Part shown: positions 725-18,716 of the stretch, piece by piece
Position numbering within the stretch: position 1 is the stretch's first letter
How the letters are laid out: every line of letters begins with the position of its first letter
IMG/VR virus record: IMGVR_UViG_3300050821_002205
Coordinates: 1 to 38,604 of that record
DNA from: a virus
Length of the DNA stretch: 38,604 nt
Reading direction: 5' to 3' (one strand)
The notes under the pieces: generated by a model
Database searches by the model: none
What the model was told of the DNA's origin: nothing
Seen by the model: the letters and a program-made list of their open reading frames with translations, nothing else
Made by a program: the position numbers and the translations under genes

Positions 725-951
725 GCCAAACGAACCGCACGCCGGCCATATGCAACAAGTGCAAGAACACGATTGCGGCCGGCGTGGGTACCATTCGGTG
801 TTGGAATGGCTCAGCGAGAAAGCATGCGCCCAAGTATGCCCGGCGGGACGCGTTCGGCGTAATATGGGCGACACTGTGCCCAACGTGCGAAAAAGAACGA
901 AACGACGCCGCAAAAATTCGCGAGTACAACAGGCGACACGGTTTTACTTGA
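721..951 (+). CDS. Small zinc-finger protein with two CxxC pairs (76 aa)
   Basis: A 76-residue protein with CNKCK near the N terminus and CPTCEKE near the C terminus. Two CxxC knuckles about 40 residues apart make a four-Cys zinc site likely. The start chosen is TTG at 721, which overlaps the stop of the previous gene (TTGA, 721-724). No Shine-Dalgarno is evident, so expression would rely on re-initiation. The frame is open further upstream, but that part lies inside the previous gene and has the composition of a shadow frame. The tail is basic (REYNRRHGFT). Function unknown. The stop is again overlapped by a TTG start at 948. Confidence 0.5.
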   Translation: MSQTNRTPAICNKCKNTIAAGVGTIRCWNGSARKHAPKYARRDAFGVIWATLCPTCEKERNDAAKIREYNRRHGFT

Positions 952-976
952 CACGCTTGTCAGATAGCCCCAAAAT
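948..976 (+). promoter_or_regulatory. Candidate promoter with TTGACACG-N3-GTCAG element
   Basis: A perfect -35 (TTGACA, 948-953), a 17-nt spacer and a weak -10 (CAAAAT, 971-976, 4 of 6). The -35 is embedded in the 16-bp element TTGACACG-CTT-GTCAG (948-963), also found at 7025 and 9606. In this copy TGACA and TGTCA form a perfect inverted repeat around CGCT (949-962). It would drive the end of the small-gene block. Confidence 0.4.
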
Positions 977-1154
977 CGAGACGTGCATCACAATAGGGGT
1001 ATACGTCTTGCTAACTATAATCGTTCTTTCGGTGCTCGCCTACGTTTGCTTAATTGCTGCCGTCTGTGTCACTCTCAAGCGAGGCACGCAAGCAATTGAA
1101 CAGGACTACCCGCTAACCGACCCGCCCAATGGAAACGACCGGCCGCATAGTTAA
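948..1154 (+). CDS. Small single-pass membrane protein (68 aa)
   Basis: The product has one long hydrophobic segment, roughly residues 16-42 (ITIGVYVLLTIIV...), followed by a charged tail (KRGTQAIEQDY), so it is probably a single-pass inner-membrane protein. Two starts are possible. TTG at 948 overlaps the preceding stop (TTGA) but has no Shine-Dalgarno. TTG at 1008 has AGGGG at 995-999 with an 8-nt spacer and would give 48 residues. If the promoter proposed at 948-976 is active, its transcript could only use the 1008 start. Function unknown; small early membrane proteins of phages sometimes act in superinfection exclusion, but nothing here proves that. Confidence 0.5.
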   Translation: MTRLSDSPKIETCITIGVYVLLTIIVLSVLAYVCLIAAVCVTLKRGTQAIEQDYPLTDPPNGNDRPHS

Positions 1155-1338
1155 CGACAAGGTCCGCGCGTGCGGGGTCGTCGCCCTCGTGGATTTGGCC
1201 GGCGACCGTATTTGGTTCTACCCACGCGGCCGGCTGCCGCCTTACCTGTGCGCTTACCTCGACATTGACCACGGGCGCCCGGCGCGCTTGCTGCGCGATT
1301 TCTGCGTGAGCCTCGGCCGCGGTGTCGTCAACGACTAA
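1129..1338 (+). CDS. Hypothetical protein (69 aa)
   Basis: A 69-residue protein starting at ATG 1129 (METTGRIVNDKVRA) that overlaps the preceding gene by 26 nt. It has a compact alternating hydrophobic pattern (CGVVALVDLAGDRIWFYP) suggesting a small beta-rich fold, and no recognisable family motif. It is the last gene of the plus-strand block. Its TAA at 1336-1338 interlocks with the TAG of the convergent helicase gene (shared CTAA, 1335-1338), so the two genes run into each other with no intergenic space. A shadow frame cannot be fully excluded, but the position and the sharp convergent boundary favour a real gene. Confidence 0.5.
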   Translation: METTGRIVNDKVRACGVVALVDLAGDRIWFYPRGRLPPYLCAYLDIDHGRPARLLRDFCVSLGRGVVND

Positions 1339-3191
1339 GGCAGGAATTTCGGGGCCGGCGGCGCGGGCGGGGCCTCGATAACCCAACGCTTGACGGTTTT
1401 CTCGACGCCGGGTAGGCGTACCGTCTTGGATTCGTACCCGAGCGCCTTTAGAACCCGCTGCGCCCTTTTCTCGGCTCGGGTGTCCATGTGGGCCGGTTGC
1501 ATCTTGAGCGCCCCCTCAAGCACTTCGCCGACGGTCAGGGGCCTATTGCATGGCGGGGGCCCGGTCGGGCTCGGCGTGGTCAGCCATTCGCCTATGCGCT
1601 GTTCCCACACGTCGGTCATTTCGTAATGCTTGTGCAGGCCCGCGGCGAGGCGTTCGGCCTCAGCGTAGGCAATGCCCGTCGCTTTCCAAATCGCCGCGCC
1701 CTCGGCCCATAGCTGCGCGCGATCGGCAACGATTAGGTCGCGGTTGATTTCGGCAATTTCGACCGGCAACCAACGGCGTTGGCCCGTCTCGTCTTGCGGC
1801 AGAAATTCCTTTTTGTTGGTCGATGCGAACAGCACGCAACGGCGATTGAATACCGTCTCGGATATCTGGTATTTCTCAACCCATTTTTCGGTTTTGCGGG
1901 TAATGACGCGCTTCACAACGTCGATATCGCCCTTGCTCAAGCCGGCCATTTCGGCAATCTCGACAACGACCTTGCCGCGCAGCATGCGCTTAAAGTTATC
2001 GTCGTCCTTGTGCAAGTCGAGCCCGTCGGTAAACCAATCGGGGTCGGGCACGAGTGCCGCGAGGCCCGTTGATTTCTTGGTGCCCTGCCGTGACTGCAAC
2101 GCAATGACCATGTCGAGTTGGCACCCGGGCTCGAACATACGGCCGGCGAACCCTGACCACATATAGCGTCCGACGGCCCGGGTATACTCGTTGTCCTCGG
2201 CGCCGAAATGCGTGTGTATGAATCGCTCGACGCGCGGCACGCCGTCCCAAACCTGATTGTTGAGCCATTCGACGCCGCTGTCGTATCGGCGCCGGGCCGC
2301 GACCAACAAGCACGCGTCGCGCATGAGTTCCTTGCCGATCGGCGCGAAGTTCTTTTCACGCTCGAACGCGAGGCGCATTGCGATATAGTCCTCGTCTTTC
2401 ATCACGTCGCGGTTGATTCCTTTTTGAACCATCACGGCGTTGCGGAACTCGTCGAACGACAGCAAGCCCTCGTATTCAAGGGTGCGCTCGACGTAATCTA
2501 GGTTCGCCTCGAACTTGTCCTTAGAGTTGACAAGCATGGCGGGCAGCGCCGGCACGGGCACGTCGGGCGGCGCGGGAATGTTCGCCGGCAGTTGTGGGGC
2601 TACGTGTTCGCCGACCGCCGTTGCGATTTGTTGTGGTGCTTGGAACGTCGGGGGCCGAGGAGCGACCGGGGCCAACGGCGGGACGGGGGCGCGCTCGGCA
2701 ACCGCTGAGCCTCGGCGTTTCCATTGTTTCGGGATGGCAACTGCCTTAATAATGGTTGAGCGGATGTAGTCGGGCCGCTCGTCCCATTTTGCGCGGTGTA
2801 GCGGACACTCTGCGCTGAGGGCGTATTGCTCGATTGCAGCGCAGTTATCGCCAAAGCCAAAAGCAAGGTGATTGATATAAGCTTGGTCAACGCTCGAACC
2901 ATCATAGGGTAGCCCTGATTTTGCGTCGGGATTCGGGGGCCACGTCGCCGCTAACTTATCTACATTGACGTTGTGTAGATCGGCGAACGTTACCTTTTTC
3001 GGATTGATCTTTGCGGCAAATGATTTCGTCTTGAGCAACGCCGCGATGCGCTCCTCGGGCGGACCCGTGAACGTGCAACGCGGGTCGTAATCGGTTGTCC
3101 AACCTTGCTCACCGTCCGCGCCCTCGATTTTCGTGGGCTTGAAATGCGACCACGCAAGGGCCCAAAGCCAATCGGTTAAATCTGCGGACAT
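1335..3191 (-). CDS. VirE/VapE-type P-loop helicase subunit of split primase-polymerase
   Basis: A 618-residue protein. Residues about 96-155 resemble the helical domain that follows the catalytic domain in NrS-1-like phage polymerases (SSVDQAYINHLAFGFG, AKWDERPDY). A Pro-rich linker follows (about 165-215), then a VirE/VapE-family ATPase: Walker A QGTKKST (369-375), Walker B-like VVVEIAEM (408-415), sensor FASTNK (455-460) and GQRRWLPVE (470-478), typical of this family's arginine-finger region. It should unwind DNA at the replication fork and work with the AEP subunit encoded just upstream. The ATG at 3191 lies inside the 3' end of that gene (16-nt overlap, -1 frame) with no strong Shine-Dalgarno. 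The C terminus is Pro/Ala-rich. Confidence 0.85.
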   Translation of the reverse strand: MSADLTDWLWALAWSHFKPTKIEGADGEQGWTTDYDPRCTFTGPPEERIAALLKTKSFAAKINPKKVTFADLHNVNVDKLAATWPPNPDAKSGLPYDGSSVDQAYINHLAFGFGDNCAAIEQYALSAECPLHRAKWDERPDYIRSTIIKAVAIPKQWKRRGSAVAERAPVPPLAPVAPRPPTFQAPQQIATAVGEHVAPQLPANIPAPPDVPVPALPAMLVNSKDKFEANLDYVERTLEYEGLLSFDEFRNAVMVQKGINRDVMKDEDYIAMRLAFEREKNFAPIGKELMRDACLLVAARRRYDSGVEWLNNQVWDGVPRVERFIHTHFGAEDNEYTRAVGRYMWSGFAGRMFEPGCQLDMVIALQSRQGTKKSTGLAALVPDPDWFTDGLDLHKDDDNFKRMLRGKVVVEIAEMAGLSKGDIDVVKRVITRKTEKWVEKYQISETVFNRRCVLFASTNKKEFLPQDETGQRRWLPVEIAEINRDLIVADRAQLWAEGAAIWKATGIAYAEAERLAAGLHKHYEMTDVWEQRIGEWLTTPSPTGPPPCNRPLTVGEVLEGALKMQPAHMDTRAEKRAQRVLKALGYESKTVRLPGVEKTVKRWVIEAPPAPPAPKFLP

Positions 3192-3658
3192 GGCCGACCC
3201 GTCAATGCGATATAGCGGGCAGACGTGTACAACTCTACGTGCAATTCCTTGTTCTTGGTTGAGTGTGGCGGCGGCTCACCACGATACGGGCCTATGATAT
3301 GAATGCCCTTGCCGCTCATGCTCGTTTCGACATACACGTCAGGACACGCCGCGCGAGCCTCGCGCACGAGCCGGGCGCCGAGTTCCGACACAACGCCGTC
3401 GGTAATGCACCCGTCGATATCGACGCACAGTAGCCCCGAGCCTGCGTGTATCACAATGCCCACACCGTAGCCGGCGCCGAGCGACTGCGCGTAGGCCGTG
3501 GCAATGTCCCATGACAGCCACGTCGCCGGGTTCTGTGCATCTGACCGCGCGAAGTCTGAGGCGGGCTCAGAGTGTAGCGGGTCAATGGGCGACTTATCCG
3601 AGCCGCGCCAGATAATGAAAACGGGCTTGGCGGATATCCAAGCGGCAAAAGGGTTCAA
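3176..3658 (-). CDS. Archaeo-eukaryotic primase (AEP) subunit of primase-polymerase
   Basis: A 160-residue protein carrying the AEP catalytic core seen at the N terminus of NrS-1-like phage polymerases. Motif I is VDIDG (D80, D82, metal ligands), motif II is SGKGIH (115-120, with the nucleotide-binding His) and motif III lies around VELYTSARYIALTG (E142 onward). It should make primers and/or extend DNA. In the family as I know it, this domain is usually fused to the helicase; here the protein stops right after the core (GRPCPQI) and the helicase is a separate overlapping gene. The start is TTG at 3658, overlapping the TGA of the HTH gene (TTGA, 3655-3658). It begins MNPFAAWISAKPVF, matching the usual start of the fold. 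Confidence 0.75.
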   Translation of the reverse strand: MNPFAAWISAKPVFIIWRGSDKSPIDPLHSEPASDFARSDAQNPATWLSWDIATAYAQSLGAGYGVGIVIHAGSGLLCVDIDGCITDGVVSELGARLVREARAACPDVYVETSMSGKGIHIIGPYRGEPPPHSTKNKELHVELYTSARYIALTGRPCPQI

Positions 3659-3942
3659 GCTATGCTCAGCGCGTCCAATTTCTCGCGTTGGCCCCTCGAC
3701 AGATTTTCACGCTTGACGATCGGGTCACGCAGCGCCACGGCCTGCGCGACAATTTGCCGGCAACCTGTGTTGAGTGCTTCAATGACAATCGCCTTGCGTA
3801 GCGCGTCCATTGTCTGCCAATGGTAATTGACAGTGCCCATGCCGCAGCCGAGCACGGTTGCAATGTTGCGCTTGAACACGTCGCGGTACCCGCGGGTTTT
3901 CGCAAGCTCAACGCCTGCGTTCAAAATCGTTTGCTTATCCAA
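3655..3942 (-). CDS. Small TetR-type helix-turn-helix DNA-binding protein
   Basis: A 95-residue protein whose first 55 residues read like the N-terminal TetR-family DNA-binding domain: ILNAGVELAKTRGYRDV, IATVLGCGMGTVNYHW, then MDALRKAIV. The large ligand-binding domain of TetR proteins is missing (usual length about 190-220), leaving a short helical tail, so it may be a stand-alone DNA-binding or dimeric regulator. The TTG start at 3942 has an excellent AGGAG (3952-3956) 9 nt upstream. A promoter with a perfect -35 lies at 3971-3999. As the only obvious transcription factor in the window it is a candidate binder of the TGAC-N6-GTCA elements at 949, 7026 and 9607. That link is inference. Confidence 0.7.
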   Translation of the reverse strand: MDKQTILNAGVELAKTRGYRDVFKRNIATVLGCGMGTVNYHWQTMDALRKAIVIEALNTGCRQIVAQAVALRDPIVKRENLSRGQREKLDALSIA

Positions 3943-3954
3943 GGTGAAATACTC

Positions 3955-4299
3955 CTAAGTGTGGCGAGGCAGTATGTTAATTTTCGCCACGCGTGTCAAA
4001 TAGCTTACGAGGTTTTGAGCGTCAGCAAGCGTATCGCCTAACATGCCTAGCGCCGTGTTGCACTTGCTGCACAGCCAACCGCGGAATTCGCCGGTTACGT
4101 GGTCATGGTCGAGGCAAAGCCTTTTGATGCCGCCCGGCACTTTACGGCAGCATTCGCAAACCTTGGGCTCGGGCCGTGTCGGCGGCTGTATTCCGCGCTC
4201 GCGCCATTTTGCCTCGCGGTACAATTGGCGTATCATATCAGGGCCGATTTTAGCTAACCATTTTCTTTGGTTTGCGGCTTGTTTTGCTGTTCGTTTCAT
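3955..4299 (-). CDS. Recombination endonuclease VII (copy 1)
   Basis: A 114-residue protein of the phage T4 endonuclease VII family (HNH/beta-beta-alpha-metal), which resolves branched DNA such as Holliday junctions before packaging. Visible motifs: CECC zinc pair, LDHDHVTGEFRGWLC with the catalytic DHDH, the second zinc pair C-SKC, and LGMLGDTLADAQNLVSYL. The ATG at 4299 (MKRTAKQAANQRKW) is chosen because it overlaps the VRR-NUC stop (ATGA, 4296-4299); the open frame further upstream lies in that gene. It is one of three members of the family in this window. Its 3' end carries a promoter for the next gene, as does copy 2. Confidence 0.88.
   Translation of the reverse strand: MKRTAKQAANQRKWLAKIGPDMIRQLYREAKWRERGIQPPTRPEPKVCECCRKVPGGIKRLCLDHDHVTGEFRGWLCSKCNTALGMLGDTLADAQNLVSYLTRVAKINILPRHT
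3971..3999 (-). promoter_or_regulatory. Candidate promoter for HTH / primase / helicase genes
   Basis: On the minus strand: TTGACA (3999-3994), a 17-nt spacer, CATACT (3976-3971). The predicted start near 3964 leaves a short leader containing the AGGAG of the HTH gene. The promoter lies inside the 3' end of the endonuclease VII gene. The -35 region shares the first 8 bases (TTGACACG) of the recurrent 16-bp element but not the GTCAG half. Confidence 0.5.
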
Positions 4300-4688
4300 A
4301 GCTTTGCCGGGTCGTTGATAAATACAGCGTAACCGCCCTCTTTGTTGACGAGATTGGCCCAACGGTACTGAGCCGCAGCGGCCTCGTCTTTCGTGTCAAC
4401 GGGCGGCGGCGTCCAATCCTCGGCCTTGCATTCGACGCTGACGAACTGCGCGATTACCTTGCCGACCATGTCCGGGGTTATAATCACGGGACGCCAGCCG
4501 ATCAAATCGCCCGACTTGAGCTTATCGCCGAGTTGCTTTGAATCGTTGGCGAGGCCGTACCGTATGAAATTGCCGGATTCCATTTTGCCGGCGCCGCGCT
4601 GATTGCGCCACAACCGCCAATGTTTCGCAACCCCCGCGAGGCGGGTGCGGGCCTGTACGTTGCTTTCGCTGTGCCCGTCGTCGCTCAT
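4296..4688 (-). CDS. VRR-NUC domain nuclease
   Basis: A 130-residue protein made almost entirely of a VRR-NUC fold, a PD-(D/E)XK-type nuclease found stand-alone in many phages next to SNF2/DEAD helicases and thought to act in DNA repair or recombination. Visible motifs: an N-terminal Arg-rich helix (HWRLWRNQRGAGKM), a substrate loop IGWRPVIITPDMVGK, the catalytic FVSVECKA (E and K of the E-x-K pair) and a later Gln helix AAQYRWANLVNKEGGYAVF. The ATG at 4688 overlaps the stop of the membrane protein gene (ATGA). The frame reads further upstream but only as shadow of that gene. It lies between the branched-DNA nuclease and the HNH/SF2 helicase genes, consistent with a DNA metabolism operon. Confidence 0.85.
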   Translation of the reverse strand: MSDDGHSESNVQARTRLAGVAKHWRLWRNQRGAGKMESGNFIRYGLANDSKQLGDKLKSGDLIGWRPVIITPDMVGKVIAQFVSVECKAEDWTPPPVDTKDEAAAAQYRWANLVNKEGGYAVFINDPAKL

Positions 4689-4957
4689 GCGCCGTACGCC
4701 CATTTCGTGAACGCAATCGCCGCGAGCGAGCCCGAGCCGCCGCCGAGCACCACGCCGAGGAGGGCCCAACGTGTGCGGTTGTCCTTGCCCTCGATAAACT
4801 TCACAGCGAACCAAAAATTAAACGCCGCAATAAGCATGTCGGTTGCGAATGTCGCGGGGTAATTCGCTTGCACGTAGGCGCGGCCATTGGCGACCACAAG
4901 GGCGTACAGTACGAACTGCGCGGCGAACCAAAACAGAAACGTCTTAAGCTTGAGCAC
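4685..4957 (-). CDS. Small polytopic membrane protein (90 aa)
   Basis: A 90-residue protein with three hydrophobic segments: FLFWFAAQFVLYALVV (about 6-21), a second around TDMLIAAFNFWFAVKFI (about 38-54) and a third around WALLGVVLGGGSGSLAAIAF (about 64-83). A charged loop (EGKDNRTR) separates the last two. The GTG at 4957 is preferred because it sits just inside the end of the HNH gene (14-nt overlap) and begins MLKLKTFLFWF; upstream sequence in frame is shadow. It could be a holin-like or exclusion protein, but it lies in the replication operon, far from the lysis genes at 14-15 kb. Function not assigned. Confidence 0.6.
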   Translation of the reverse strand: MLKLKTFLFWFAAQFVLYALVVANGRAYVQANYPATFATDMLIAAFNFWFAVKFIEGKDNRTRWALLGVVLGGGSGSLAAIAFTKWAYGA

Positions 4958-5303
4958 GGGTACCCTTGTATGTTGTCGTCTTGGCTGTGTGTTTGAAAAT
5001 GCGCCGCTCTTTATTCGTGGCCGGAGGGACGGCCTCAAGGTGCCCGGGGTTGATGCAAAACCCGTTGCGGCATGTGTGGTCGATTTCATAGCCCTCGGGA
5101 ATCGGGCCAATGAACGTTTCGTACGCGACTATATGCGCTTGCCGGCGCAGCGCGCGGCCTACCTTTTTGCACCATACGTTGATTTTGCCGTACGGCGTCG
5201 AGGCGCGCTTGTCGCGTGCGCCGATCCAATCCCAACAACCCGTGACTACGTCGAGCACAGAATTAGCAATTAAACGGGCTTCCATGTCGCGGTATTTTTT
5301 CAC
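4944..5303 (-). CDS. HNH endonuclease (HNH_3-like)
   Basis: A 119-residue HNH nuclease. The core reads YGKINVW...AHIVAYETFIGPIPEG, then YEIDHTCRNGFCINPGHLEAV, the signature of the HNH_3 group (EIDH with catalytic His, zinc-binding C-R-N-x-x-C, NPxHL), followed by TNKERR. The N terminus includes CWDWIGARDKR, frequent in phage HNH proteins. The GTG start at 5303 overlaps the SF2 helicase stop (GTGA, 5300-5303). Such genes are often free-standing homing endonucleases, but this one is embedded in an operon with tight overlaps, so it may be a resident DNA-processing enzyme. It is one of two non-endoVII HNH genes in the window. Confidence 0.85.
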   Translation of the reverse strand: MKKYRDMEARLIANSVLDVVTGCWDWIGARDKRASTPYGKINVWCKKVGRALRRQAHIVAYETFIGPIPEGYEIDHTCRNGFCINPGHLEAVPPATNKERRIFKHTAKTTTYKGTRAQA

Positions 5304-7012
5304 GGCGCCTCGACTATGTTGTTGGCTTTCAAATCGTCCCACACGAGCCCGCGTAGTGTATCAGCGTCGTCGGCGCCGAGTACCTGCGCGCTCAGCACGT
5401 CGCGCCCGAATTTGAAAAAGAATCGGCGTTGCACTTCCGCGGGGTCGCGCCCGAGCGCGTTGTGCTGCCAACCGCCCCATACGCTCATGGCTTTACGCAG
5501 TTCGTGCTGCGCCTCGCGGCGGGCGTTGTGGTTCTTGTGAATCGAGCGCATGACCACGTCGGCCGCACCGACCGGCACGCGCGCGGGCCCGTCAACCTTG
5601 GCTTGCTCGACACGCATGGCGTGCAATACTTCCGGGTCAAGCTCAAAGCAATTGCCGTCAACCTCCTCGGGCGTGCCGCGACGCTGCGGGGGCGGCTTGG
5701 GCGTTCCGCAGTTCGGGCACTTGGACAGCGTCGCCTCGTACGGTTCGAGGCAATCCTCGTTGATGCAATAGCGTAGCGGTATCTCGTCCGACTTGGCCTT
5801 GCGCGATTTGCGGGGCGCGCGGTCGAGCGTGTATTTGCGCTCAACGTCGGGCAGCCCGTGCCGCACGTAGTTTTGCACGTGGTCGATTATGATGGCCTTG
5901 GGCTTGACGCTCGCGGCAATCTCGGCGAGGCGCTGTGCGTCGGTGCGGTCGTTCCATGTGGCGTTTTGTACGTCGGTCAGCATGAGCCGCAGCGCGCGGC
6001 CGAATTGCTGCGAGTAGAGTTGAAACGATGCCGTCGGGCGCGCCATGCTCACAACCTCGACCGCGGGCACGTCCACGCCCTCGCCGAGCACGTCAACCGA
6101 AACGAGTTGCAGGATTTGCCGCGCGCGGAATTGCCGCATGAGTTGGCCGCGGACAAATAGCGGCGTCTTGGCCGTGATGATTTCGGCCGGTATACCTTCG
6201 CTGCGGTACTTGGCCGCGAGTTCGGTCGCCGCCTCGATATCGACCGCGAACGTAATGCCGAGCTTGCCGGCGGCAAATTTCATGTAGTGGTGAACCACGT
6301 CGCCAACAATCGTTTTCGAGCTATGCACGGCGGCGCGCACTTTCTTTTGGTTGTAATCGCCCGACTCGCCTATTTCGATATCCTCGACATGAATGTCAGA
6401 CGGCGGCGCAATGAGGCGGTAATCGCACAGAAACCCGCGGTTGATGATTTCGCGAGCGCAGGGCCCGACAATGAGTTCGTCAACTATGCCGTCGGAATTG
6501 CGCCCGAGGCCGCGGCCGTCGGCTCGTATCGCGTGGGCAGTGACGAGGAGGCCCCGCGCTGACGTGAGCGGCGCGACGGCCTTGACCCATTTGTTATCGT
6601 TCGCGAAATGGTGCCCCTCGTCGCCGACGAACAATTCGACTTGCTTTAGCCACGGGTCGGCGGGGTCGTGGTTGATGAACGTATCGACGCCGGCCACGCG
6701 GACGGGCGCGCGCGGCGACCAAAACGAGCGGCCGTGTATTTCTTGCTCAAGCGTGATTATCTGCCGTTGGATTGCGTCGGGGGCGATAATGGCGTGCGGC
6801 ACTTGCTCGCGGTTGAGCGCGAGGGCGGCTTGTCCGACGAGTTCTTGCCTATGGCTGATTAGAACGGTTGCCCGGTTTAGCTCGGCGACGATATCGCAGA
6901 ATAGAACGGTTTTACCGCCGCCGGTTGGCGCGACTAGCATCACATTTCGAGCCCCGCGGCCCCATGCGGCATATGTGCGGCTCTTTAGCTCTTGCTGAAA
7001 GTCTCTAAGCAT
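5300..7012 (-). CDS. Superfamily 2 DEAD/DEAH-type helicase with C-terminal zinc ribbon
   Basis: A 570-residue SF2 helicase related to the UvsW/RecG/type III restriction group. Motifs: Q-region FQQEL near residue 6, Walker A APTGGGKT (28-35), Ia LISHRQE, motif II VGDEGHH (DExH, about 131), III-like LVTAHAIR (T-A-H in place of T-A-T), V near VLGEGVDVP and VI QQFGRALR. A four-Cys ribbon follows (C-x4-C, then CPNC) and then a helical tail. It probably remodels or unwinds branched replication and recombination intermediates. The ATG at 7012 is preceded by GAGG. It is the first gene of the leftward block and is read from the divergent promoter at 7025-7067. Confidence 0.9.
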   Translation of the reverse strand: MLRDFQQELKSRTYAAWGRGARNVMLVAPTGGGKTVLFCDIVAELNRATVLISHRQELVGQAALALNREQVPHAIIAPDAIQRQIITLEQEIHGRSFWSPRAPVRVAGVDTFINHDPADPWLKQVELFVGDEGHHFANDNKWVKAVAPLTSARGLLVTAHAIRADGRGLGRNSDGIVDELIVGPCAREIINRGFLCDYRLIAPPSDIHVEDIEIGESGDYNQKKVRAAVHSSKTIVGDVVHHYMKFAAGKLGITFAVDIEAATELAAKYRSEGIPAEIITAKTPLFVRGQLMRQFRARQILQLVSVDVLGEGVDVPAVEVVSMARPTASFQLYSQQFGRALRLMLTDVQNATWNDRTDAQRLAEIAASVKPKAIIIDHVQNYVRHGLPDVERKYTLDRAPRKSRKAKSDEIPLRYCINEDCLEPYEATLSKCPNCGTPKPPPQRRGTPEEVDGNCFELDPEVLHAMRVEQAKVDGPARVPVGAADVVMRSIHKNHNARREAQHELRKAMSVWGGWQHNALGRDPAEVQRRFFFKFGRDVLSAQVLGADDADTLRGLVWDDLKANNIVEAP

Positions 7013-7024
7013 TTCGCCTCACAG

Positions 7025-7067
7025 TTGACACGGGCGTCAGTATCGGTAGAATGCCGCCCACTGTCAA
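7025..7067. promoter_or_regulatory. Overlapping divergent promoters with palindromic -35 boxes
   Basis: Rightward: TTGACA (7025-7030), 16-nt spacer, TAGAAT (7047-7052, 5 of 6). Leftward: TTGACA (7067-7062), 17-nt spacer, GATACT (7044-7039, 4 of 6). The two perfect -35 boxes form an inverted repeat (GTTGACA 7024-7030, TGTCAAC 7062-7068), and each -10 lies inside the other's spacer, so polymerases should exclude each other. The rightward half also contains the recurrent TTGACACG-N3-GTCAG element (7025-7040). Predicted starts are near 7059 (right) and 7032 (left), leaving leaders of about 30 and 20 nt. Confidence 0.7.
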
Positions 7068-7088
7068 CACCAACCCGGAGTGAACCAC

Positions 7089-8030
7089 GTGCAATTCCTA
7101 ATAGATACGACCAACGACGCGCCGGCCGAACTATACCGAATAGGTAAGTTTCTCGTCGAACAGTTCGCGGCCGTTGCGATGCCCCCCGACGAGGCTGCCG
7201 AAGTAACGGCCGCCGCCCTCGCTCCAACAAAAGTGACTGACGGGCTCATAGGCAAATCTGCCGCCGAAGTTCGCGCCGAGATAATGGCCGCCCCGCCGCC
7301 CCCGCCCGCCACGATTCCCGCGCCGCCGTCCACGATTACCGACGTTGTCGGCGACGACGACCCCGAGGTTGAGATTGACGACGAGGGTACGGTAACGGCG
7401 TTAACAACGTCGGTGCAACTTCCCGCCGCGCCGCCCCCGCCCGCTGCCCCGCCTGCACCCTTGGCAGCCGCCCCTAGTGCCGGGATTCCCGCGGCTACAC
7501 CATTGCCGCCCGGCCCTGCCGTTGCTGCGGAATTGGATAGCCGCGGTTATCCGTGGGACGGCCGCATACATGCGTCGAATCGCGCCAAGAAAATCGACGG
7601 CAGTTGGAAAAACAAACGAGGCGTTGACGCCAACCTCGTCGTTGCCTGCGAGGCGCAAAACAAACCGGGAAACGCACTAACCCCGGTTGCCTCAACGACG
7701 GCCGCCCCTGCGCCCCTGACGGTGCCGGCGGCTGCGTCGCCTGCGATTTCCGCGCCCGCCGCTGCCCCGCCTGCGCCGACCGCCCCGCCCCCGCCGCCCC
7801 CTACGGCTGGAAATGCTGCGCCGGCTGCGGTCGCGCCTGCGGCGATTGATTTCCGCGGCCTCATGCAGAAAATTCAACAAGCACAGGCGTCGAAAAAATT
7901 GACCGACGCGCAAGTCAACGCGGCGTTGCTGACGGTCGGATTGCAGCCGCAAGACATGGCGCAGTTGATCGGCAACGCGCTGTACATTGCGAGCGTCAAC
8001 GCGGCAATCGACGCGTGCTTGTCCTCGTGA
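7089..8030 (+). CDS. Pro/Ala-rich phage early protein with conserved 'GYPWDGRIHASNRAKK' segment
   Basis: A 313-residue protein, first gene of the rightward block. Segments: a helical N-terminal part (residues 1-60), a Pro/Ala linker, an acidic stretch (VGDDDPEVEIDDEG), a second linker, then a conserved-looking piece SRGYPWDGRIHASNRAKK followed by DGSWKNKRGVD. A long Pro/Ala linker leads to a helical C-terminal domain (FRGLMQKIQQAQASKK to IDACLSS). The PWDxRIH...KKxDGxWK pattern recurs, as I remember it, in hypothetical proteins of other phages, without known function. The GTG at 7089 is preferred to GTG 7080 because GGAG (7077-7080) sits 8 nt before it. Its place ahead of nuclease, SSB and polymerase genes suggests a replication accessory role (inference). 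Confidence 0.75.
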   Translation: MQFLIDTTNDAPAELYRIGKFLVEQFAAVAMPPDEAAEVTAAALAPTKVTDGLIGKSAAEVRAEIMAAPPPPPATIPAPPSTITDVVGDDDPEVEIDDEGTVTALTTSVQLPAAPPPPAAPPAPLAAAPSAGIPAATPLPPGPAVAAELDSRGYPWDGRIHASNRAKKIDGSWKNKRGVDANLVVACEAQNKPGNALTPVASTTAAPAPLTVPAAASPAISAPAAAPPAPTAPPPPPPTAGNAAPAAVAPAAIDFRGLMQKIQQAQASKKLTDAQVNAALLTVGLQPQDMAQLIGNALYIASVNAAIDACLSS

Positions 8031-8209
8031 CCAATACGCCGCCCCCTCGCCTGCACTTTAGGCGAGGGGTAGCGGCCGAGCACGTGCAAGGCAACACGTA
8101 CCGTTGGGTTGACCCGATTGACGGGACGCACAAAGGGTACGTCGTTTCGCTGCCGGTTGAGTACGAGCCCACTATCGAGGCACAGATTGCGAGGAGTAAG
8201 AAACAGTGA
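8027..8209 (+). CDS. Small hypothetical protein (60 aa)
   Basis: A 60-residue protein starting at GTG 8027, which overlaps the previous stop (GTGA, 8027-8030), and ending at 8209, where the next gene begins with another GTGA overlap. An earlier in-frame GTG at 8015 is less likely. The sequence includes GNTYRWVDPIDGTHKGYVVSL, a probable small beta-hairpin unit, and an amphipathic basic C-terminal helix (TIEAQIARSKKQ). No family recognised. The overlap on both sides supports it as a real, coupled gene between the Pro/Ala-rich protein and the DUF2800 nuclease. Confidence 0.6.
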   Translation: MTNTPPPRLHFRRGVAAEHVQGNTYRWVDPIDGTHKGYVVSLPVEYEPTIEAQIARSKKQ

Positions 8210-9324
8210 GCGAACCCGAATTGCATGCGGACTATGCGCCGTCGTCGATGTACCTGACGGTTGCGTGCCCGGGCTGGAAAAAGCAAAGCGCGGGCGTTCC
8301 GCCGCAAGCCCCGACCGAGGCGATTATCGAGGGCGAGGCCGGCCATTGGGTCGCCGCGATGCGCGCTCAACTCGGCGACAAGTTCAACCGGCAGGTTGGG
8401 CAACCGTGCCCCGACGGCGTCGAGACAACCGAGGAAATGCTCGACGGTGCGGCCACATGGGTCGAGGCGCTTGAGGGCTACCCGGCGCACATTGAGAAAC
8501 GCGTCGAGATTACCTCGATACACCCTACAAAATGTTGGGGCACGCCCGACGCGCGGCAATGGAATCTCGACACGAAAACGCATCGCGCAGCCGACTACAA
8601 GTTCGGGCACGAGTACGTTGACGAGTTCGAGTGCTGGCAATTACTTTCCTACACTGTCGGCTCGCTCGACGAGGTTTACCCCGATTGGCGCAACGACTCA
8701 GACGTGCGGGCCGAAATGACGATTGTACAACCGCGGTTCTACAATGCGCCGCCCATTCGCACGTGGACAATTCAGACGGCGGGCCTACTGCATTACGAGG
8801 CCCGCATGCGCAATGCGGTCGCCGAGGCCGAGGGCCCGAACCCGCGCGTTATCTCGGGCACACACTGCACGCATTGCCCGGCCCGCGTTACGTGCTCGAC
8901 GTTCGCCAAAACCGTCATGCACGCAATCGACTTTGCCGGCCGGCCCGACCCGATGGTTGCGAACGCTGACCAAGTCGGCAAGGAACTCGTGCTTGTGCAA
9001 GAGTTCATAAAGCGACTTGAGGCGCGCGAAACCGGATTGTCGGCAATGGCCGAGGGCATGATTAAGGCGGGGCAGCGTGTCCCGTTCTACAGCCTCAAGC
9101 AATCCGAGGGGCGCCTCGCGTGGACTATGCCAATTGAGGTTGTCGAAATGTCGGCGCAGATGGTCGGCAAGTCGGCGCTCAAGCCGCCCGCGCTCGTCAC
9201 GCCCACGCAGGCCAAGGACAGACGGCTACTCGACACGCGCGTCATTGCGGCCTATTCTGACCGCCCTAAAGGCGCGTTCAAACTCACGCGGGACAGCACC
9301 ACGGCGAGGAAATTTACGGCATGA
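8206..9324 (+). CDS. DUF2800-family Cas4/RecB-like nuclease
   Basis: A 372-residue protein matching the phage DUF2800 family, PD-(D/E)XK exonucleases related to Cas4 and RecB. Evidence: an N-terminal Cys (VACPGW, C21) and EGEAGHWVAAM (EGxxxH helix, 42-50), CWGTPDA with the catalytic Asp near 115, RAADYKFG (D130, K132) and ECWQLLSYT (Gln helix). A C-terminal Cys cluster THCTHCPARVTC (221, 224, 230) could, with C21, bind an iron-sulfur cluster as in Cas4/AddB. It probably resects or processes DNA during recombination-dependent replication. The GTG at 8206 has GAGGAG at 8191-8196 (9-nt spacer) and overlaps the previous stop. The downstream endonuclease VII overlaps by ATGA. Confidence 0.85.
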   Translation: MSEPELHADYAPSSMYLTVACPGWKKQSAGVPPQAPTEAIIEGEAGHWVAAMRAQLGDKFNRQVGQPCPDGVETTEEMLDGAATWVEALEGYPAHIEKRVEITSIHPTKCWGTPDARQWNLDTKTHRAADYKFGHEYVDEFECWQLLSYTVGSLDEVYPDWRNDSDVRAEMTIVQPRFYNAPPIRTWTIQTAGLLHYEARMRNAVAEAEGPNPRVISGTHCTHCPARVTCSTFAKTVMHAIDFAGRPDPMVANADQVGKELVLVQEFIKRLEARETGLSAMAEGMIKAGQRVPFYSLKQSEGRLAWTMPIEVVEMSAQMVGKSALKPPALVTPTQAKDRRLLDTRVIAAYSDRPKGAFKLTRDSTTARKFTA

Positions 9325-9677
9325 GCCGCGAATCTCAAAAACGTTGGGCGGCCAAGGTCGGCCCCGAGCATGTGCGCAAAATGAACACCGACGCGCAACG
9401 CAAGAAACGCGGTTGTCAGTTACCAACGCGGCCCGAGCCGAAAGTGTGCGAATGTTGCAAGGGCCTGCCGACTCGCAACGGCCGATTGCACGCTGACCAT
9501 GAGCACCCGACAGGCAAGTTTCGCGGTTGGCTCTGCAATGGTTGCAACACGGGTATCGGATTGCTCGGCGACAATCTAACAGGCGCCCAAAACGCCGAAC
9601 GATACTTGACACGCGCGTCAGCCGTGACATACTTACCGCCGAATATTTCACCAAACCCGGAGAATGTAGGAACATGA
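9321..9677 (+). CDS. Recombination endonuclease VII (copy 2)
   Basis: A 118-residue endonuclease VII family protein, colinear with copy 1: QKRWAAKVGPEHV at the N terminus, RPEPKVCECC zinc pair, ADHEHPTGKFRGWLC (catalytic D-H-E-H; the other copies have D-H-D-H), NGCNTG and IGLLGDNLTGAQNAERYL. It should cleave branched DNA. The ATG at 9321 overlaps the DUF2800 stop (ATGA), with GAGG about 10 nt upstream. Two stretches are identical at DNA level to copy 3 (24 nt and 18 nt), indicating recent duplication or gene conversion. Its 3' end contains a promoter for the next gene. The Asp-to-Glu difference near the active site may alter metal use. Confidence 0.88.
   Translation: MSRESQKRWAAKVGPEHVRKMNTDAQRKKRGCQLPTRPEPKVCECCKGLPTRNGRLHADHEHPTGKFRGWLCNGCNTGIGLLGDNLTGAQNAERYLTRASAVTYLPPNISPNPENVGT
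9513..9536 (+). repeat. 24-nt exact repeat shared by endoVII copies 2 and 3
   Basis: The 24 bases here, encoding GKFRGWLC, are identical to 11583-11606 in copy 3. A further 18-nt identity (9558-9575 with 11628-11645) encodes part of GLLGDN. Identity over synonymous positions indicates a recent common origin. Confidence 0.9.
9606..9633 (+). promoter_or_regulatory. Candidate promoter inside endoVII copy 2, with recurrent operator-like element
   Basis: TTGACA (9606-9611), a 16-nt spacer and CATACT (9628-9633) preceded by TGA, which makes an extended -10 (TG at 9625-9626). The -35 is part of TTGACACG-CGC-GTCAG (9606-9621), the element also seen at 948 and 7025. The predicted start near 9640 is about 34 nt before the Acb2-like gene's ATG. 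Confidence 0.5.
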
Positions 9678-10093
9678 GCGAAACACAAACAACGGTTGTT
9701 ACCCCCGAGCGGCAGATTGCCGCAAGCCAAGTCGGCGCGGTATTCAACTCGCTACACGAGTACCTGCGGACACTCGAACCGAAAGACCCCGAGAACCGCT
9801 CGACCATGACACACCAATTGCAATGCGCGCACGAGCGCGTTGACGAGGCGGCCATGTGGGCAATCAAGTCGGTGTTGACGTACGGGTTGCCGCCCAAGCC
9901 GACGCCGCCCGCTGCGAACGACGCGCCGGCCGCACCCGCTGCCGAGACGCCCGCGCCGATCGGCGTGGTTGACGCGGCTGCCCCCGTGGACGAAGTACCG
10001 GCGCCCGCGGCCGATCAGCAACCGACGGCCGACGCCAACGCACCGACCGGCGCCGACGCTCTGCCGCCCACCACGCCAACGGAAAGCGTGTAA
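9674..10093 (+). CDS. Probable Acb2/Tad1-hairpin-like protein with Pro/Ala-rich tail
   Basis: A 139-residue protein. The first 70 residues read as two helices with a pattern I recognise from small phage proteins of the Acb2/Tad1 hairpin family (anti-CBASS cyclic nucleotide sponges): an N-terminal helix (RQIAASQVGAVFNSLHEYL), a turn (EPKDPENRS), then a helix ending HERVDEAAMWAIKSVL, like the family's 'K-EEA-MWA-K' ending. The remaining 70 residues are a Pro/Ala linker (about 75-139), absent from the family's compact 70-90-residue members. The ATG at 9674 overlaps the endoVII stop (ATGA), and a dedicated promoter lies upstream. If correct, it would bind CBASS second messengers and block that defence. 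It could instead be a plain replication accessory protein. Confidence 0.5.
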   Translation: MSETQTTVVTPERQIAASQVGAVFNSLHEYLRTLEPKDPENRSTMTHQLQCAHERVDEAAMWAIKSVLTYGLPPKPTPPAANDAPAAPAAETPAPIGVVDAAAPVDEVPAPAADQQPTADANAPTGADALPPTTPTESV

Positions 10094-10107: not shown

Positions 10108-10171
10108 TCCCGCGCGCCCCGGTTTGAAATATCCGGTTTGACAACGTTACCAGACGGCCGAGCGCGCGGGA
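10108..10171 (+). promoter_or_regulatory. Structured leader upstream of the ssDNA-binding protein gene
   Basis: The 112-nt gap before the SSB gene contains a perfect 10-bp inverted repeat, TCCCGCGCGC (10108-10117) and GCGCGCGGGA (10162-10171). It encloses a CCGG/CCGG hairpin (10119-10136) and a direct repeat CCGGTTTGA (10119-10127, 10133-10141). The SSB Shine-Dalgarno AGGAG (10193-10197) lies 21 nt downstream. No U tract follows, so a translation-control leader is more likely than a terminator. TTGACA at 10138 has no matching -10. Confidence 0.5.
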
Positions 10172-10205
10172 TAGGGCCAACCACACCAATCGAGGAGTTC
10201 GACAC

Positions 10206-11186
10206 TTGAGTAAAACCGCAGTTGAGTTAACCACGCCGCCGGGCCGCTTTGTGTTCGGCGACTTGTACGACCCGGAAACCGAAGATTTCGACGGCAACCC
10301 GCTCGTGATTAAGAACGGCGCAGACAAGGGCAAATCGACGCAGCTATTTGTCATTGGCCTCGCTATCGCCAAGACTCAGGGCCATTGGGGCAACGAGCCG
10401 GGTTGGGGTCAAGCCATTTGGGCCGCCGGGCATGCAGCGTTCCCGGGCGGCGAGGCACAACGCCCCGATTTCTCTTGGAAAATTTACGACGGCGACAGCA
10501 CCGTCATTCCGCCCAAGAGCAAAAGCAAGGTGCGCCCGTGCGACCGCGAGGGCTGGAAAGGTTGTTGGGTTCTGCGCCTGCAATCGGCATTCGCCCCGGC
10601 AATCTGGAACGCGCTCACGAATCCCGAGAACCCGACCCCGTTGAACGACAAGGACGCCGTGCGCCCCGGGTACGTCATTCAAGTCGTCGGCACGGTCAAG
10701 GGCAACACGGGCTCGTCGCCCGGCGTGTACCTGAATCACAATGCCGTCGGCCTGCGCGCCTACCTGCCGGAAATCATTACCCGAGGGGTTGACGTAAAGG
10801 GCAAATTCGGCGGCGCTGTGCCTGCCGGCGCCTCGACCATGCCCGCGGCCGCCGCTATCCCTGCGGGTACCCCGCCGGCCGCCCCTGGCGCCCCTGCGGC
10901 GGTTCCAGCCGCCCCCGCCGTGCCAGCCGCCGCACCCGCTGCGCCGGCCCCGGCTGCCGCTCCTACGGCCGTCGTACCGGCCCCGGCGGTTATGGGTATC
11001 CCGACGGCCCCGGCCGCCCCGAGCGCCCCGCCTGCGCCGGCTGCGGCCCCCGCCGCGCCGGCTGCGGCCCCCGCCGCGCCGCCCCCGCCGGTCACTCGAC
11101 CGCCGCACAAGGGCATACCAATCGAGGGGTATTTCGCCCAAGGTTGGACCGAGGCACAGTTGCGAGCCGACGGGTATACCGGCTGA
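10206..11186 (+). CDS. DUF2815-type single-stranded DNA-binding protein
   Basis: A 326-residue protein. Residues 1-205 match the phage DUF2815 ssDNA-binding family: GRFVFGDLYDPETEDFDGNP, GKSTQLFVIGLAI, FSWKIYDGDS, the core GCWVLRLQSAF and the strand set PGYVIQVVGTVKGN with SPGVYLNHNAVGLRAY. About 95 residues of Pro/Ala-rich linker follow, then a conserved-looking tip (GYFAQGWTEAQLRADGYTG) that may recruit partners, as acidic tips of other SSBs do; this tip is not strongly acidic. It coats ssDNA during replication. The start is TTG 10206 with AGGAG 8 nt upstream. The leader is highly structured, raising the possibility of autogenous control as in T4 gp32. It is followed by a strong hairpin at 11227. 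Confidence 0.8.
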   Translation: MSKTAVELTTPPGRFVFGDLYDPETEDFDGNPLVIKNGADKGKSTQLFVIGLAIAKTQGHWGNEPGWGQAIWAAGHAAFPGGEAQRPDFSWKIYDGDSTVIPPKSKSKVRPCDREGWKGCWVLRLQSAFAPAIWNALTNPENPTPLNDKDAVRPGYVIQVVGTVKGNTGSSPGVYLNHNAVGLRAYLPEIITRGVDVKGKFGGAVPAGASTMPAAAAIPAGTPPAAPGAPAAVPAAPAVPAAAPAAPAPAAAPTAVVPAPAVMGIPTAPAAPSAPPAPAAAPAAPAAAPAAPPPPVTRPPHKGIPIEGYFAQGWTEAQLRADGYTG

Positions 11187-13954: not shown

Positions 13955-14445
13955 TGAGGCGGCGCGGGTTTCGGCGCTGCGGCTTGAATTACCGTTACTT
14001 CGCGGGCGTCGTGGAGACAGGCTGTTGACGCTCGGCTAATGCTTGCGCCAACGTCTGCAAACGCTTGTTCAAGTCGGCTATTGCTTCCGGGGCCTGCGCC
14101 GGTTCCGCCGCTTCCGCCGGGATTTGCCATTGCGGCAAACAAGCCGCCGGCACGTAATGCGGCTTGAACGCTGCGCACGCTGTCAGTAACAGAACTGACA
14201 AGAGCGTCAGACTTCGCTTTAAGGTCGTCATTTTGCTTTGCTACCTGTTGTTGCAGTTGAGTACGATCAACGAGCGCCGCGTTTAGGTCGGCCTGTGCTT
14301 TTGCGAGCACCGACGCCTGCGCGAGCTTGTCGATATTCCATTGAGCTTGAACGTGAAACATGCCGACTTTGACGCCGCAGCCAAATAGAATGGCCGCGAC
14401 GATCACGTAAGCAATCGCTCGAATTTCGAGTTGGGTTGGTGTCAT
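13951..14445 (-). CDS. Rz: Inner-membrane spanin (i-spanin, Rz-like)
   Basis: A 164-residue protein with the Rz layout: a short N terminus, one signal-anchor (AIAYVIVAAILFGCGVKVG, about residues 10-28), then a long periplasmic helical/coiled-coil region rich in Ala, Gln and Lys (QADLNAALVDRTQLQQQVAKQ, DLKAKSDALVSSV) and a Gly/Pro-rich tail. It bridges the periplasm with Rz1 to fuse inner and outer membranes at the last step of lysis of Gram-negative hosts. The ATG at 14445 overlaps the upstream membrane protein stop (ATGA). Rz1 is entirely nested in it in another frame. The gene ends inside the last codon of the convergent DNA polymerase. Confidence 0.85.
   Translation of the reverse strand: MTPTQLEIRAIAYVIVAAILFGCGVKVGMFHVQAQWNIDKLAQASVLAKAQADLNAALVDRTQLQQQVAKQNDDLKAKSDALVSSVTDSVRSVQAALRAGGLFAAMANPGGSGGTGAGPGSNSRLEQAFADVGASISRASTACLHDAREVTVIQAAAPKPAPPH
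13995..14231 (-). CDS. Rz1: Outer-membrane spanin lipoprotein (o-spanin, Rz1-like), nested in Rz
   Basis: A 78-residue lipoprotein in a different frame wholly inside Rz. A basic start (MTTLKR) is followed by a hydrophobic core and a lipobox LLTAC with Cys19 as lipidation site. The mature part of about 60 residues is Pro- and Gln-containing (LPQWQIPAEAAEPAQAPEA) and ends in an Ala/Gln-rich helix. This is the typical form of an o-spanin, anchored in the outer membrane and binding the Rz periplasmic domain. The fully embedded Rz1 arrangement is known in lambda-like and Bcep781-like phages. The lipobox makes a chance frame very unlikely. Confidence 0.88.
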   Translation of the reverse strand: MTTLKRSLTLLSVLLLTACAAFKPHYVPAACLPQWQIPAEAAEPAQAPEAIADLNKRLQTLAQALAERQQPVSTTPAK

Positions 14446-14634: not shown

Positions 14635-14820
14635 TTAGATTTTCTTGGCTTCCGCCTCGACCTTGGCGACGACTGCCGGCGCGGCTGTCTCGACCCGGGC
14701 AATGTCGGCCTTGGCGGTAGCTACGGCCGCGGCGCCCTCGCCCTTTTTGCTGCGATTGCCCACGATGAACCCGAACGCGAACGCCGCAACGAGGGCGACG
14801 CCTGCAATGATGATAGTCAT
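14635..14820 (-). CDS. Small single-TM protein of the lysis cassette
   Basis: A 61-residue protein with a hydrophobic N terminus (MTIIIAGVALVAAFAFGFIVG, residues 1-21) followed by NRSKKGE and an Ala/Val/Lys-rich helix (ADIARVETAAPAVVAKVEAE). Topology suggests N-out with a cytoplasmic helical tail, or a signal anchor. The ATG at 14820 has AGGAG 9 nt upstream, one of the better ribosome sites in the late region. It lies between the endolysin and the two-TM protein, so it is a candidate holin/antiholin partner or lysis regulator. I do not recognise a specific family. Confidence 0.65.
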   Translation of the reverse strand: MTIIIAGVALVAAFAFGFIVGNRSKKGEGAAAVATAKADIARVETAAPAVVAKVEAEAKKI

Positions 14821-14851
14821 GTCAGATAACTCCTATGTTGAAACCGGCCCA

Positions 14852-16862: not shown

Positions 16863-18716
16863 CTAGACGTTGGTATTTATGGTAACAGAAACGCCCGGCG
16901 GCGTGGGAATGACCCCGGATTGTTCCAGAATCGCGAGTTGAATTGCGGTCGGCGTAAACGTCAGGTTGTACGAAATCGCCATTGGGCCCGTGTTGAGCAC
17001 GAATGCCGTGCCCTGCCCGTAGAGATTCTGCAAAATCTGATTGATTGCCGGCGCGGTCGTCGTGGCGATATTCGCGAACGCCTTTGCGAGAATCAATTGC
17101 CGGTAAGAATCGTCAGGCAGCAAATACGCCGTCGTGGCATTGTGCCCCGTGTAGAACGCGCCGCCGACGGGCGGGTTGTTGTACGGCGGCTGATCGGAAC
17201 CGGCCGGCGTCCAATCCTGAGCGGGCTGCGATTCGCTCGACTGATAGAACCCAACGTAATCGGTCGTATTCGGAATTTGCAACAGCCGCGACACGCCAAC
17301 AATTTTGCCCCATATGTCGAGGCCGAAACCGACAGCCGTGTCAACATTCCAAACGAAATTGAAAAAGTTAGCGAAGTTCGCCGATTGGTCAATGTACTGA
17401 TTGAGGTTGTTGACTAGCTGCAAAATCGTCGGCGAGTTCGCATACTGCGAAATAACCGTTGCCTCGAAATCGAACAGAGTGCCGACCGCGGGTATACCCT
17501 GCGACAACACGAACGAGACGATGGTACCGACAGCAACCGCCGCGCCTGCGTTCGGGTTCTGCGCTTGCACTTCGCCCGGCGGCACAAATTTCGACGGCGC
17601 CGAACCGATCGCACCCGGCACGAGGCCGAGCGACAACAACAGGTTGATTGCGTCCGTCTGCGTGAGCCCGAACAAATCGGGAACCGTGAGCGCCGGCAAT
17701 CCCGAGGACACGACCACGTTGACGGGAGTATCGACAATCACAACGTCGCCGGCCAGCGGCGATTGGCTTATGACATTGCCGGCAATAATTACGCCGCTAG
17801 CCTGATACGTGATTGTACCTATGACCAAATCCGCGGCAGACAAAAGCGCGGGTACAACTACAGAAATTGAGGCGTTGGTAAGATCGGGTACCGTCGTATC
17901 GCTTGAGCCTGCCGACACAACAATATCGACGGGCGTAGCGTGATTAACAAGCGTGCCCGGGGCCGGCGATTGACTTATGACTTGTCCCGCGGGCGCGGGA
18001 TTGAACGCACCTATAATCGTGCCGACAGTTAGATTGGCCGCGACGATATCCGCCTCGGCCGCCGCCTGCATTTCGCCGACGACGTTGGGCACGGTGACAG
18101 GCAACAAATCTGAGTTCGGGCCCCATACCCAATTTTTGATTGTCGTGGTCGTGACGCCGTTGCCCACAAAGTAACCGCCGGCCGACCATGTTTGTAACGT
18201 GGCCGCACTGACGATTGCTGATACGTCTTGCGAGGCGCAAAAAGTAAGCAATCCCGTGTTTAGGTCGATCGCGTAAACCGAGGCGACAGTGCCCGAGATA
18301 GACAGGTATTGCGTCAGAAATGCCGAACTTGTGTTATACGGAATCGGCGGCGAAATTGGCAACGTGTACCGTGTCTCGCCCGCGCCATTGTTGACAGCGA
18401 ATACAACCTCGTTCAAAAACCCGGGGTCGCTTATGCTGCCCGGCGACGCGGTCAAGTAATGCGTCGCGTCGAGGGCAAAGCCAACAAAAATCGCCGTTAC
18501 ATTACCCGAGACAAGCCCCACGTCGAAACCGACATACACGTTGTCAGTTTCAGGCCCCGAGGCATTGACCGAGAATATTGATAGATACGAACCCGACGAA
18601 TTGGTGTTCGTGAAATTGCCCGACCCAACGGTATACGCAAACCCCGTGTTTGCTGCGCCGGCAAAATATGCCAGTTCGCTCGGGCTGAGTAGTGGCGCGC
18701 GGCCCCGAAAGCTCAT
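16863..18716 (-). CDS. DUF2612-type baseplate protein fused to three PASTA repeats and N-terminal beta domain
   Basis: A 617-residue protein. Residues 1-205: beta-rich, possibly lectin-like (DNVYVGFDVGL, FALDATHYLTA). Residues 208-268, 275-338 and 344-406: three PASTA repeats (VPNVVGEMQ, VPDLTNASIS, VPDLFGLTQ; each with SQSP or AQNP and ending VDIVVS-like). Residues about 415-600: a DUF2612-type baseplate domain (SQYANSPTILQLVNNLNQYID, VDTAVGFGLDIWGKIVGVSR), occupying the place of P2 gpI / T4 gp6-type wedge partners. PASTA domains bind muropeptides in bacterial kinases and are not a normal part of this baseplate protein. They may contact peptidoglycan or act as a spacer. The ATG at 18716 overlaps the gpJ stop (ATGA). 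Confidence 0.8.
   Translation of the reverse strand: MSFRGRAPLLSPSELAYFAGAANTGFAYTVGSGNFTNTNSSGSYLSIFSVNASGPETDNVYVGFDVGLVSGNVTAIFVGFALDATHYLTASPGSISDPGFLNEVVFAVNNGAGETRYTLPISPPIPYNTSSAFLTQYLSISGTVASVYAIDLNTGLLTFCASQDVSAIVSAATLQTWSAGGYFVGNGVTTTTIKNWVWGPNSDLLPVTVPNVVGEMQAAAEADIVAANLTVGTIIGAFNPAPAGQVISQSPAPGTLVNHATPVDIVVSAGSSDTTVPDLTNASISVVVPALLSAADLVIGTITYQASGVIIAGNVISQSPLAGDVVIVDTPVNVVVSSGLPALTVPDLFGLTQTDAINLLLSLGLVPGAIGSAPSKFVPPGEVQAQNPNAGAAVAVGTIVSFVLSQGIPAVGTLFDFEATVISQYANSPTILQLVNNLNQYIDQSANFANFFNFVWNVDTAVGFGLDIWGKIVGVSRLLQIPNTTDYVGFYQSSESQPAQDWTPAGSDQPPYNNPPVGGAFYTGHNATTAYLLPDDSYRQLILAKAFANIATTTAPAINQILQNLYGQGTAFVLNTGPMAISYNLTFTPTAIQLAILEQSGVIPTPPGVSVTINTNV

Follow-up and report, generated by a model that had tools for sequence, protein, structure and literature searches.

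A palindromic repeat in early promoters of a tailed-phage record as the likely operator of a 95-residue TetR-type protein

Introduction

Which protein, if any, recognises a short repeat that recurs at the early promoters of a phage? The question is raised by the 38.6-kb IMG/VR virus record IMGVR_UViG_3300050821_002205, a stretch of 38,604 nucleotides (nt) with tailed-phage gene content, the whole of which is called the window below. It carries a 16-bp element, TTGACACG-N3-GTCAG, at 948-963, 7025-7040 and 9606-9621. A sequence-only reading of the window had taken this element for the operator of a dedicated regulator and had pointed to a helix-turn-helix (HTH) protein of TetR type, encoded on the minus strand at 3655-3942. 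This interpretation was supported by the comparison with related phages reported here. We regard it as likely, with fairly strong confidence, that the element serves as operator for a protein of the phage itself, the 95-residue TetR-type protein, which would act as a Cro-like, autoregulated repressor of early promoters. The earlier account missed that the copies are more numerous, that some are intragenic and that the site is distributed across the family.

Results

The repeat is part of a longer, conserved palindrome

The three exact copies were confirmed, all on the plus strand and with no others in the record, and the element is beyond chance, any match being present in 0 of 100 dinucleotide shuffles. 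When up to two mismatches were allowed, 11 matches were found in the window, against 0.87 expected. The 13 defined letters are a slice of the natural unit, a longer palindrome YTGACA-N4-TGTCAR. Its core is the inverted repeat TGAC-N6-GTCA (YTGACANNNNTGTCAR in the window), which holds the -35 box at the promoter copies, as had been described. At one mismatch or less, 12 copies of the palindrome were counted in the window, compared with 0.55 in shuffles and 0-3 with other spacers. The same unit emerged from a motif-blind scan in which every 5-mer half-site was combined with every spacer from 0 to 12: TGACA-4-TGTCA was the top gapped palindrome by enrichment in the window and in the related genomes G009, G003, G002 and G006 (at one mismatch or less, 12 versus 0.7 expected in the window and 27 versus 1.4 in G009). 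Enrichment of the TGACA/TGTCA half-sites was seen at a spacing of 4 only.

A related set of 59 IMG/VR loci was assembled from helicase-based searches. Protein searches tied the group to cultured phages of Klebsiella (Jedunavirus), Pectobacterium (PEAT2), Acinetobacter (Scuro), Shewanella, Stenotrophomonas and others. Across the 59 loci, exact TGAC-N6-GTCA was present in 220 copies, against a mean of 12.5 for other spacings, and it was also found in the cultured phages KpV52 (14 copies), PEAT2 (17), Scuro (5) and SppYZU01 (2). Operator subtypes could be distinguished: an inner A characterised the window clade and Scuro, and an inner G or C with an outer C or T the others.

Intergenic copies overlap early promoters of particular genes

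Operator 1 (TTGACACGCTTGTCAG, 948-963, plus strand) contains TTGACA as its -35 and is followed after 17 nt by a putative -10, CAAAAT (971-976). It overlaps the stop of the open reading frame (ORF) 721-951 and precedes a short early gene; in G003, G009, G010 and G011 the homologous small gene has its upstream site in the same position. Operator 2 (TTGACACGGGCGTCAG, 7025-7040, plus strand) lies in the divergent promoter region between the helicase gene and gene 7089, with a putative -10, TAGAAT (7047-7052), for the plus-strand gene. On the minus strand, a putative helicase promoter (7039-7067) can be read from the sequence as TTGACA (7067-7062), a 17-nt spacer and GATACT (7044-7039); since it adjoins operator 2, one operator could control both directions. 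Operator 3 (TTGACACGCGCGTCAG, 9606-9621, plus strand) falls within the final codons of the endonuclease VII ORF 9321-9677, with a short early gene next and a putative -10, CATACT, at 9628-9633. At the three sites the putative -10 is found at 16-17 nt. The location at gene junctions claimed for all three holds cleanly for the intergenic site 2, whereas sites 1 and 3 overlap ORF ends.

The ORFs 9321-9677 (plus) and 3955-4362 (minus), both of HNH/endonuclease VII type, encode YLTR near the C-terminus with the codons TTG ACA CGC. In the promoter of the following gene these codons double as the -35 and the left arm of the operator. Protein-coding and regulatory letters are thus shared here, and genes of this kind could bring promoters along with them.

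When a -10 score was computed over 173 oriented intergenic sites, a peak was observed only at a spacer of 17 (30% strong, versus 1-10% at neighbouring offsets), which identifies the left arm of the operator as the -35. The intergenic copies thus sit in promoters that, as judged from their letters, are of the host sigma70 type with a consensus -35.

The placement of the site is gene-specific. In the 39 genomes with the system, exact sites up to 130 nt upstream of genes were counted; the gene calls came from a simple purpose-written caller, so that individual starts may err, the contrast between families being robust. An exact site was found upstream of 31 of 33 orthologues of gene 7089-8030, 22 of 37 helicase genes, 21 of 35 tetR genes and 20 of 33 genes for the single-stranded DNA-binding protein (SSB), as well as of all five orthologues of gene 9674-10093 and all eleven copies of an early gene encoding 225-246 residues. 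Primase (0/36), exonuclease (0/35) and DNA polymerase (0/27) genes had none, and most other families none or few. Absence of the motif upstream of relatives' homologues had been named in advance as grounds for abandoning the operator; the exact operator was instead present at nearly all site-2 and at all site-3 homologues. The 225-246-residue protein, encoded outside the window (G009 10157-10834, minus strand, and orthologues), gave no Pfam match.

A short TetR-type protein is the only recognisable regulator

The 95-residue protein (3655-3942, minus strand) is a putative cognate repressor with a TetR_N HTH, an assignment resting on Pfam, AlphaFold and covariation with the operator. TetR_N (PF00440) scored above cut-off in eight phages, and the protein is encoded between helicase and primase in all eight first-round genomes covering the region; a homologue was recognisable in 50 of the 59 loci. 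The AlphaFold model (predicted local distance difference test, pLDDT, 91.6) has six helices, and the best matches in both fold and sequence were TetR-family structures. Only about 45 residues follow the HTH, and the large C-terminal domain for ligand binding and dimerisation is lacking.

A half-match had been noted in the promoter of this gene. It is indeed there, as the degenerate operator TTGACACGCGTGGCGA on the minus strand (3999-3984), with a CATACT -10 at 3976-3971 after a 17-nt spacer; the equivalent in relatives is a full or one-mismatch site, and the tetR promoter carries a site in most of them. The tetR start is apparently TTG (3940-3942 in the window) throughout the window clade, with AGGAG before it.

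In agreement with the earlier account, the window encodes no other recognisable transcription regulator, and the same applies to the accessory genes of relatives: the 65 accessory proteins taken from four relatives included neither a further recognisable transcription regulator or HTH protein nor an integrase. No tyrosine integrase was detected in ten records, which are fragments and in which no separate search for serine integrases or partition genes was made. The group is probably lytic (virulent). In several cultured relatives the annotation already reads "putative TetR transcriptional regulator", with no operator assigned there.

Operator letters vary with the HTH of the protein

Mantel tests over eight widely shared families related protein distance to the distance of the genome-specific operator letters outside TGAC. 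The best correlation with operator divergence was obtained for the TetR-type protein (r 0.375), followed by 0.206 for the next family, the helicase giving 0.07. Within the protein, residues 20-48, which form the HTH, covaried more closely (r 0.417) than the C-terminus (0.241). Given helicase distance and GC content, the partial r of the TetR-type protein was 0.36 (P 0.0005), and that of the helicase fell to -0.01. Furthermore, at least three sites were present in 29 of the 50 loci with a TetR homologue, and four loci that cover the region without the gene had 0, 0, 0 and 1 sites. The TetR-type protein is most likely the cognate regulator of the element.

Several observations weigh against this attribution. 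The right arm of the window's own tetR site is degenerate, and the tetR sites of KpV52 and G012 depart from the genome consensus. Fewer than three sites were found in 21 of the 50 TetR-bearing loci, mostly those with diverged HTHs. The permutation tests leave some shared ancestry in, for which the other families serve as controls. Finally, the fact that related records measure 44-53 kb suggests that the window record is incomplete, and the missing part might hold another regulator, though the equivalent parts of relatives showed none.

Copies inside genes exceed expectation

In the window, operator-like sites with one mismatch were found on the plus strand in the helicase gene (6384-6399), at 14195-14210, 20943-20958 and 21246-21261 inside genes, and at 14810-14825, where the site overlaps the start of gene 14635-14820. 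Further intragenic sites are located at 23778-23793 and 24387-24402 (plus strand; both with a site at the homologous place in G002), at 38214-38229 (plus strand; the homologous G009 gene has related sites near mid-gene) and at 17329-17344 on the minus strand. The last had been set aside as a near match in coding sequence, probably due to chance. G002 and G003 have the site at the corresponding place, so that chance is not the sole reading, although conservation of the protein could also preserve the site.

With at most one mismatch, 9 intragenic sites were counted in the window against 1.25 in codon shuffles, 18 against 1.65 in G009 and 18 against 2.4 in G003. In the eleven genomes of the inner-A clade, 48 exact sites lie well inside genes, versus 5.2 after codon shuffling and 3.3 with other spacers, and in genomes outside this group the excess is about threefold. 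The inner-base rule used for the grouping put the window in the second, non-inner-A group (5 versus 1.25 there). Most intragenic copies have no -10 at 17 nt; 10% have one.

Discussion

Mode of action and alternatives

We infer dimer binding, steric repression, autoregulation and early shut-off as follows. A dimer of the 95-residue protein would bind both TGAC half-sites of TGAC-N6-GTCA, and the protein bound at the left half-site, at the -35, would exclude RNA polymerase. Its level would rise early, through expression of the helicase-tetR-primase region. The protein would turn off the early and replication promoters and also its own, where the site is usually the weaker one; this would give negative feedback. 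The result would be an early-gene shut-off like that of lambda Cro, without lysogeny. In the window clade, the intragenic copies would be extra binding places, serving either as roadblocks or as titration sites.

This last part extends the proposed repression and leaves its promoter part untouched. That the intragenic copies are stoperator-like roadblocks, or decoys titrated by replication, is a tentative proposal, which we consider possible though somewhat short of probable. It agrees with the excess over codon shuffles, about ninefold in the inner-A clade, but this is only about threefold in other clades, the sites are palindromic, unlike the asymmetric and oriented stoperators of L5, and some copies, those with a -10 at spacer 17, may be internal promoters. 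Going further, one could imagine a genome-wide palindromic stoperator-like system in phages without detectable lysogeny genes, in which a minimal, ligand-domain-free TetR repressor acts at early promoters. One clade would add many selected intragenic sites, and there the repressor would block elongation or be titrated by replicating DNA and so time the early-to-late switch; we consider this full scheme rather doubtful.

Alternatively, the TetR-type protein might bind the site and activate the promoters, or switch their strand or timing. A second conserved element, AAAGTGTGACG, precedes some relatives' operators, which points to a promoter control more complex than a single repressor. However, the site covers a consensus -35 whose -10 follows after 17 nt, a position where a bound protein would block the polymerase and no activator is needed, and the protein's own promoter has the site as well. 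Repression is favoured because of this overlap with the -35, and activation appears unlikely.

It is very improbable that the repeat is simply a conserved early promoter motif of sigma70 type, with an incidental palindrome and no dedicated binding protein. The copies do flag early transcription units and come with TTGACA and a -10; yet the right arm GTCA is foreign to sigma70 promoters while the N6 spacing is uniquely enriched, the intragenic copies mostly lack a -10, and outside TGAC the letters of the operator change along with the TetR HTH. Binding by a host regulator whose operator the phage adopted is scarcely credible: phages are known to borrow host regulators such as LexA and the search of GTDB genomes gave no host, but the core is shared by Klebsiella, Pectobacterium and Acinetobacter phages as well as unplaced soil phages, and the operator varies with the phage TetR protein and not with GC content.

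Relation to known systems

Lambda-type Cro is a small early-gene repressor with palindromic operators overlapping early promoters and with autoregulation. The repressor proposed here would share with it the small size, the palindromic operators over early promoters, the autoregulation and the early shut-off, and the operator was found both at early promoters and at the regulator's own promoter (in a degenerate copy in the window). It differs in having a TetR-type HTH instead of a Cro fold and in its operators, which stand singly at many dispersed promoters; unlike in lambda, no CI or lysogeny module was found.

Phage repressors with dispersed operators are already known. Mycobacteriophage L5-type stoperators are asymmetric 13-mers oriented with transcription and bound by a two-domain monomeric repressor (PMC9283540). 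As in L5 and Bxb1 (PMC9283540, PMC6550527), many dispersed sites are present here in promoters and inside or between genes (12 in the window to 27 in G009 at one mismatch or less), their consensus drifts with the repressor, and an autoregulatory site accompanies the repressor gene. In contrast, the sites are palindromic 16-mers with no inherent orientation, the protein is a 95-residue single-HTH protein and not a 183-residue two-domain monomer, and no integrase was found. As the stoperator features that could be compared are thus split, the system is not classed as a stoperator system.

With the bacterial repressors TetR, EbrR and EilR, the system has in common the TetR_N HTH, the best sequence and fold matches to the TetR family and a palindromic operator; members of the family total about 200 residues with a helical C-terminal domain, unlike the 95-residue phage protein, from which this ligand-binding domain is missing. 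The "Putative TetR transcriptional regulator" of the Klebsiella Jedunavirus phages KpV52 and MEW1 occupies the orthologous helicase-primase position and is about 35% identical; the operator consensus of this type is TTGACGnnnnCGTCAA, compared with YTGACAnnnnTGTCAR in the window, and intragenic copies are few.

In the literature searched, coverage of which was partial, no description of the operator was found, nor one of a ligand-domain-free TetR repressor with such a palindromic regulon in probably virulent myoviruses. The analysis predicts an operator, a regulon and a regulator for a widespread and probably virulent group of myoviruses, among them Klebsiella Jedunavirus, Pectobacterium PEAT2 and Acinetobacter Scuro; in that literature, their gene control is apparently undescribed. 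The TetR fold cut down to its DNA-binding part would be a putative phage early repressor, and dozens of genomes supply paired operators and HTHs, which form a natural series for the evolution of repressor/operator specificity. In addition, the intragenic excess makes an independent origin of stoperator-like control outside mycobacteriophages a testable question.

Other features of the relatives and the window

The AAAGTGTGACG element is found directly upstream of some operators and nowhere else in G009 (19580 and 9872, minus strand), G006 (38498, minus), G010 (4843, plus) and G012 (38376, 4459 and 3378, minus), and the window lacks it. Its role may be that of an additional promoter or activator box. 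In five loci (L078, L079, L080, L083 and L109) the HTH is changed (SNALVVSHY), and ACTAAC-N6-GTTACT replaces TGAC-N6-GTCA in the tetR promoter. Each of these genomes has a single copy of this sequence, the one in the tetR promoter, and no enrichment across the genome, so that a switch of specificity in this diverged group is suggestive only. Frequent palindromes in L082, L094 and L099, which lack TGAC sites, were considered as operators and rejected as tandem coding repeats.

No close DNA relatives of the window were found among the GenBank phages searched, and the GTDB search for a prophage or host yielded three weak helicase relatives only. The early genes are arranged in two divergent blocks and encode a helicase, a VapE-type primase/helicase, an exonuclease, endonuclease VII, a Gp2.5-like SSB and a family A DNA polymerase. 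The helicase gene (5300-7012, minus strand) was assigned by its ResIII and Helicase_C Pfam domains. Gene 7089-8030 (plus strand) encodes a conserved early protein of PHROG 11133, with no function assigned, and gene 9674-10093 (plus strand) an early protein of 139 residues, putatively driven by the operator-3 promoter. Downstream of operator 1, the ORF 1008-1154 (plus strand, TTG start) would encode a small membrane-type protein of 48 residues, as predicted from its sequence, for which the Pfam search returned no match. The long minus-strand block matches the structural genes of relatives, the cultured ones being myoviruses. At the very end of the record (1-150), simple GTCGGC repeats code for a Gly/Val-rich stretch.

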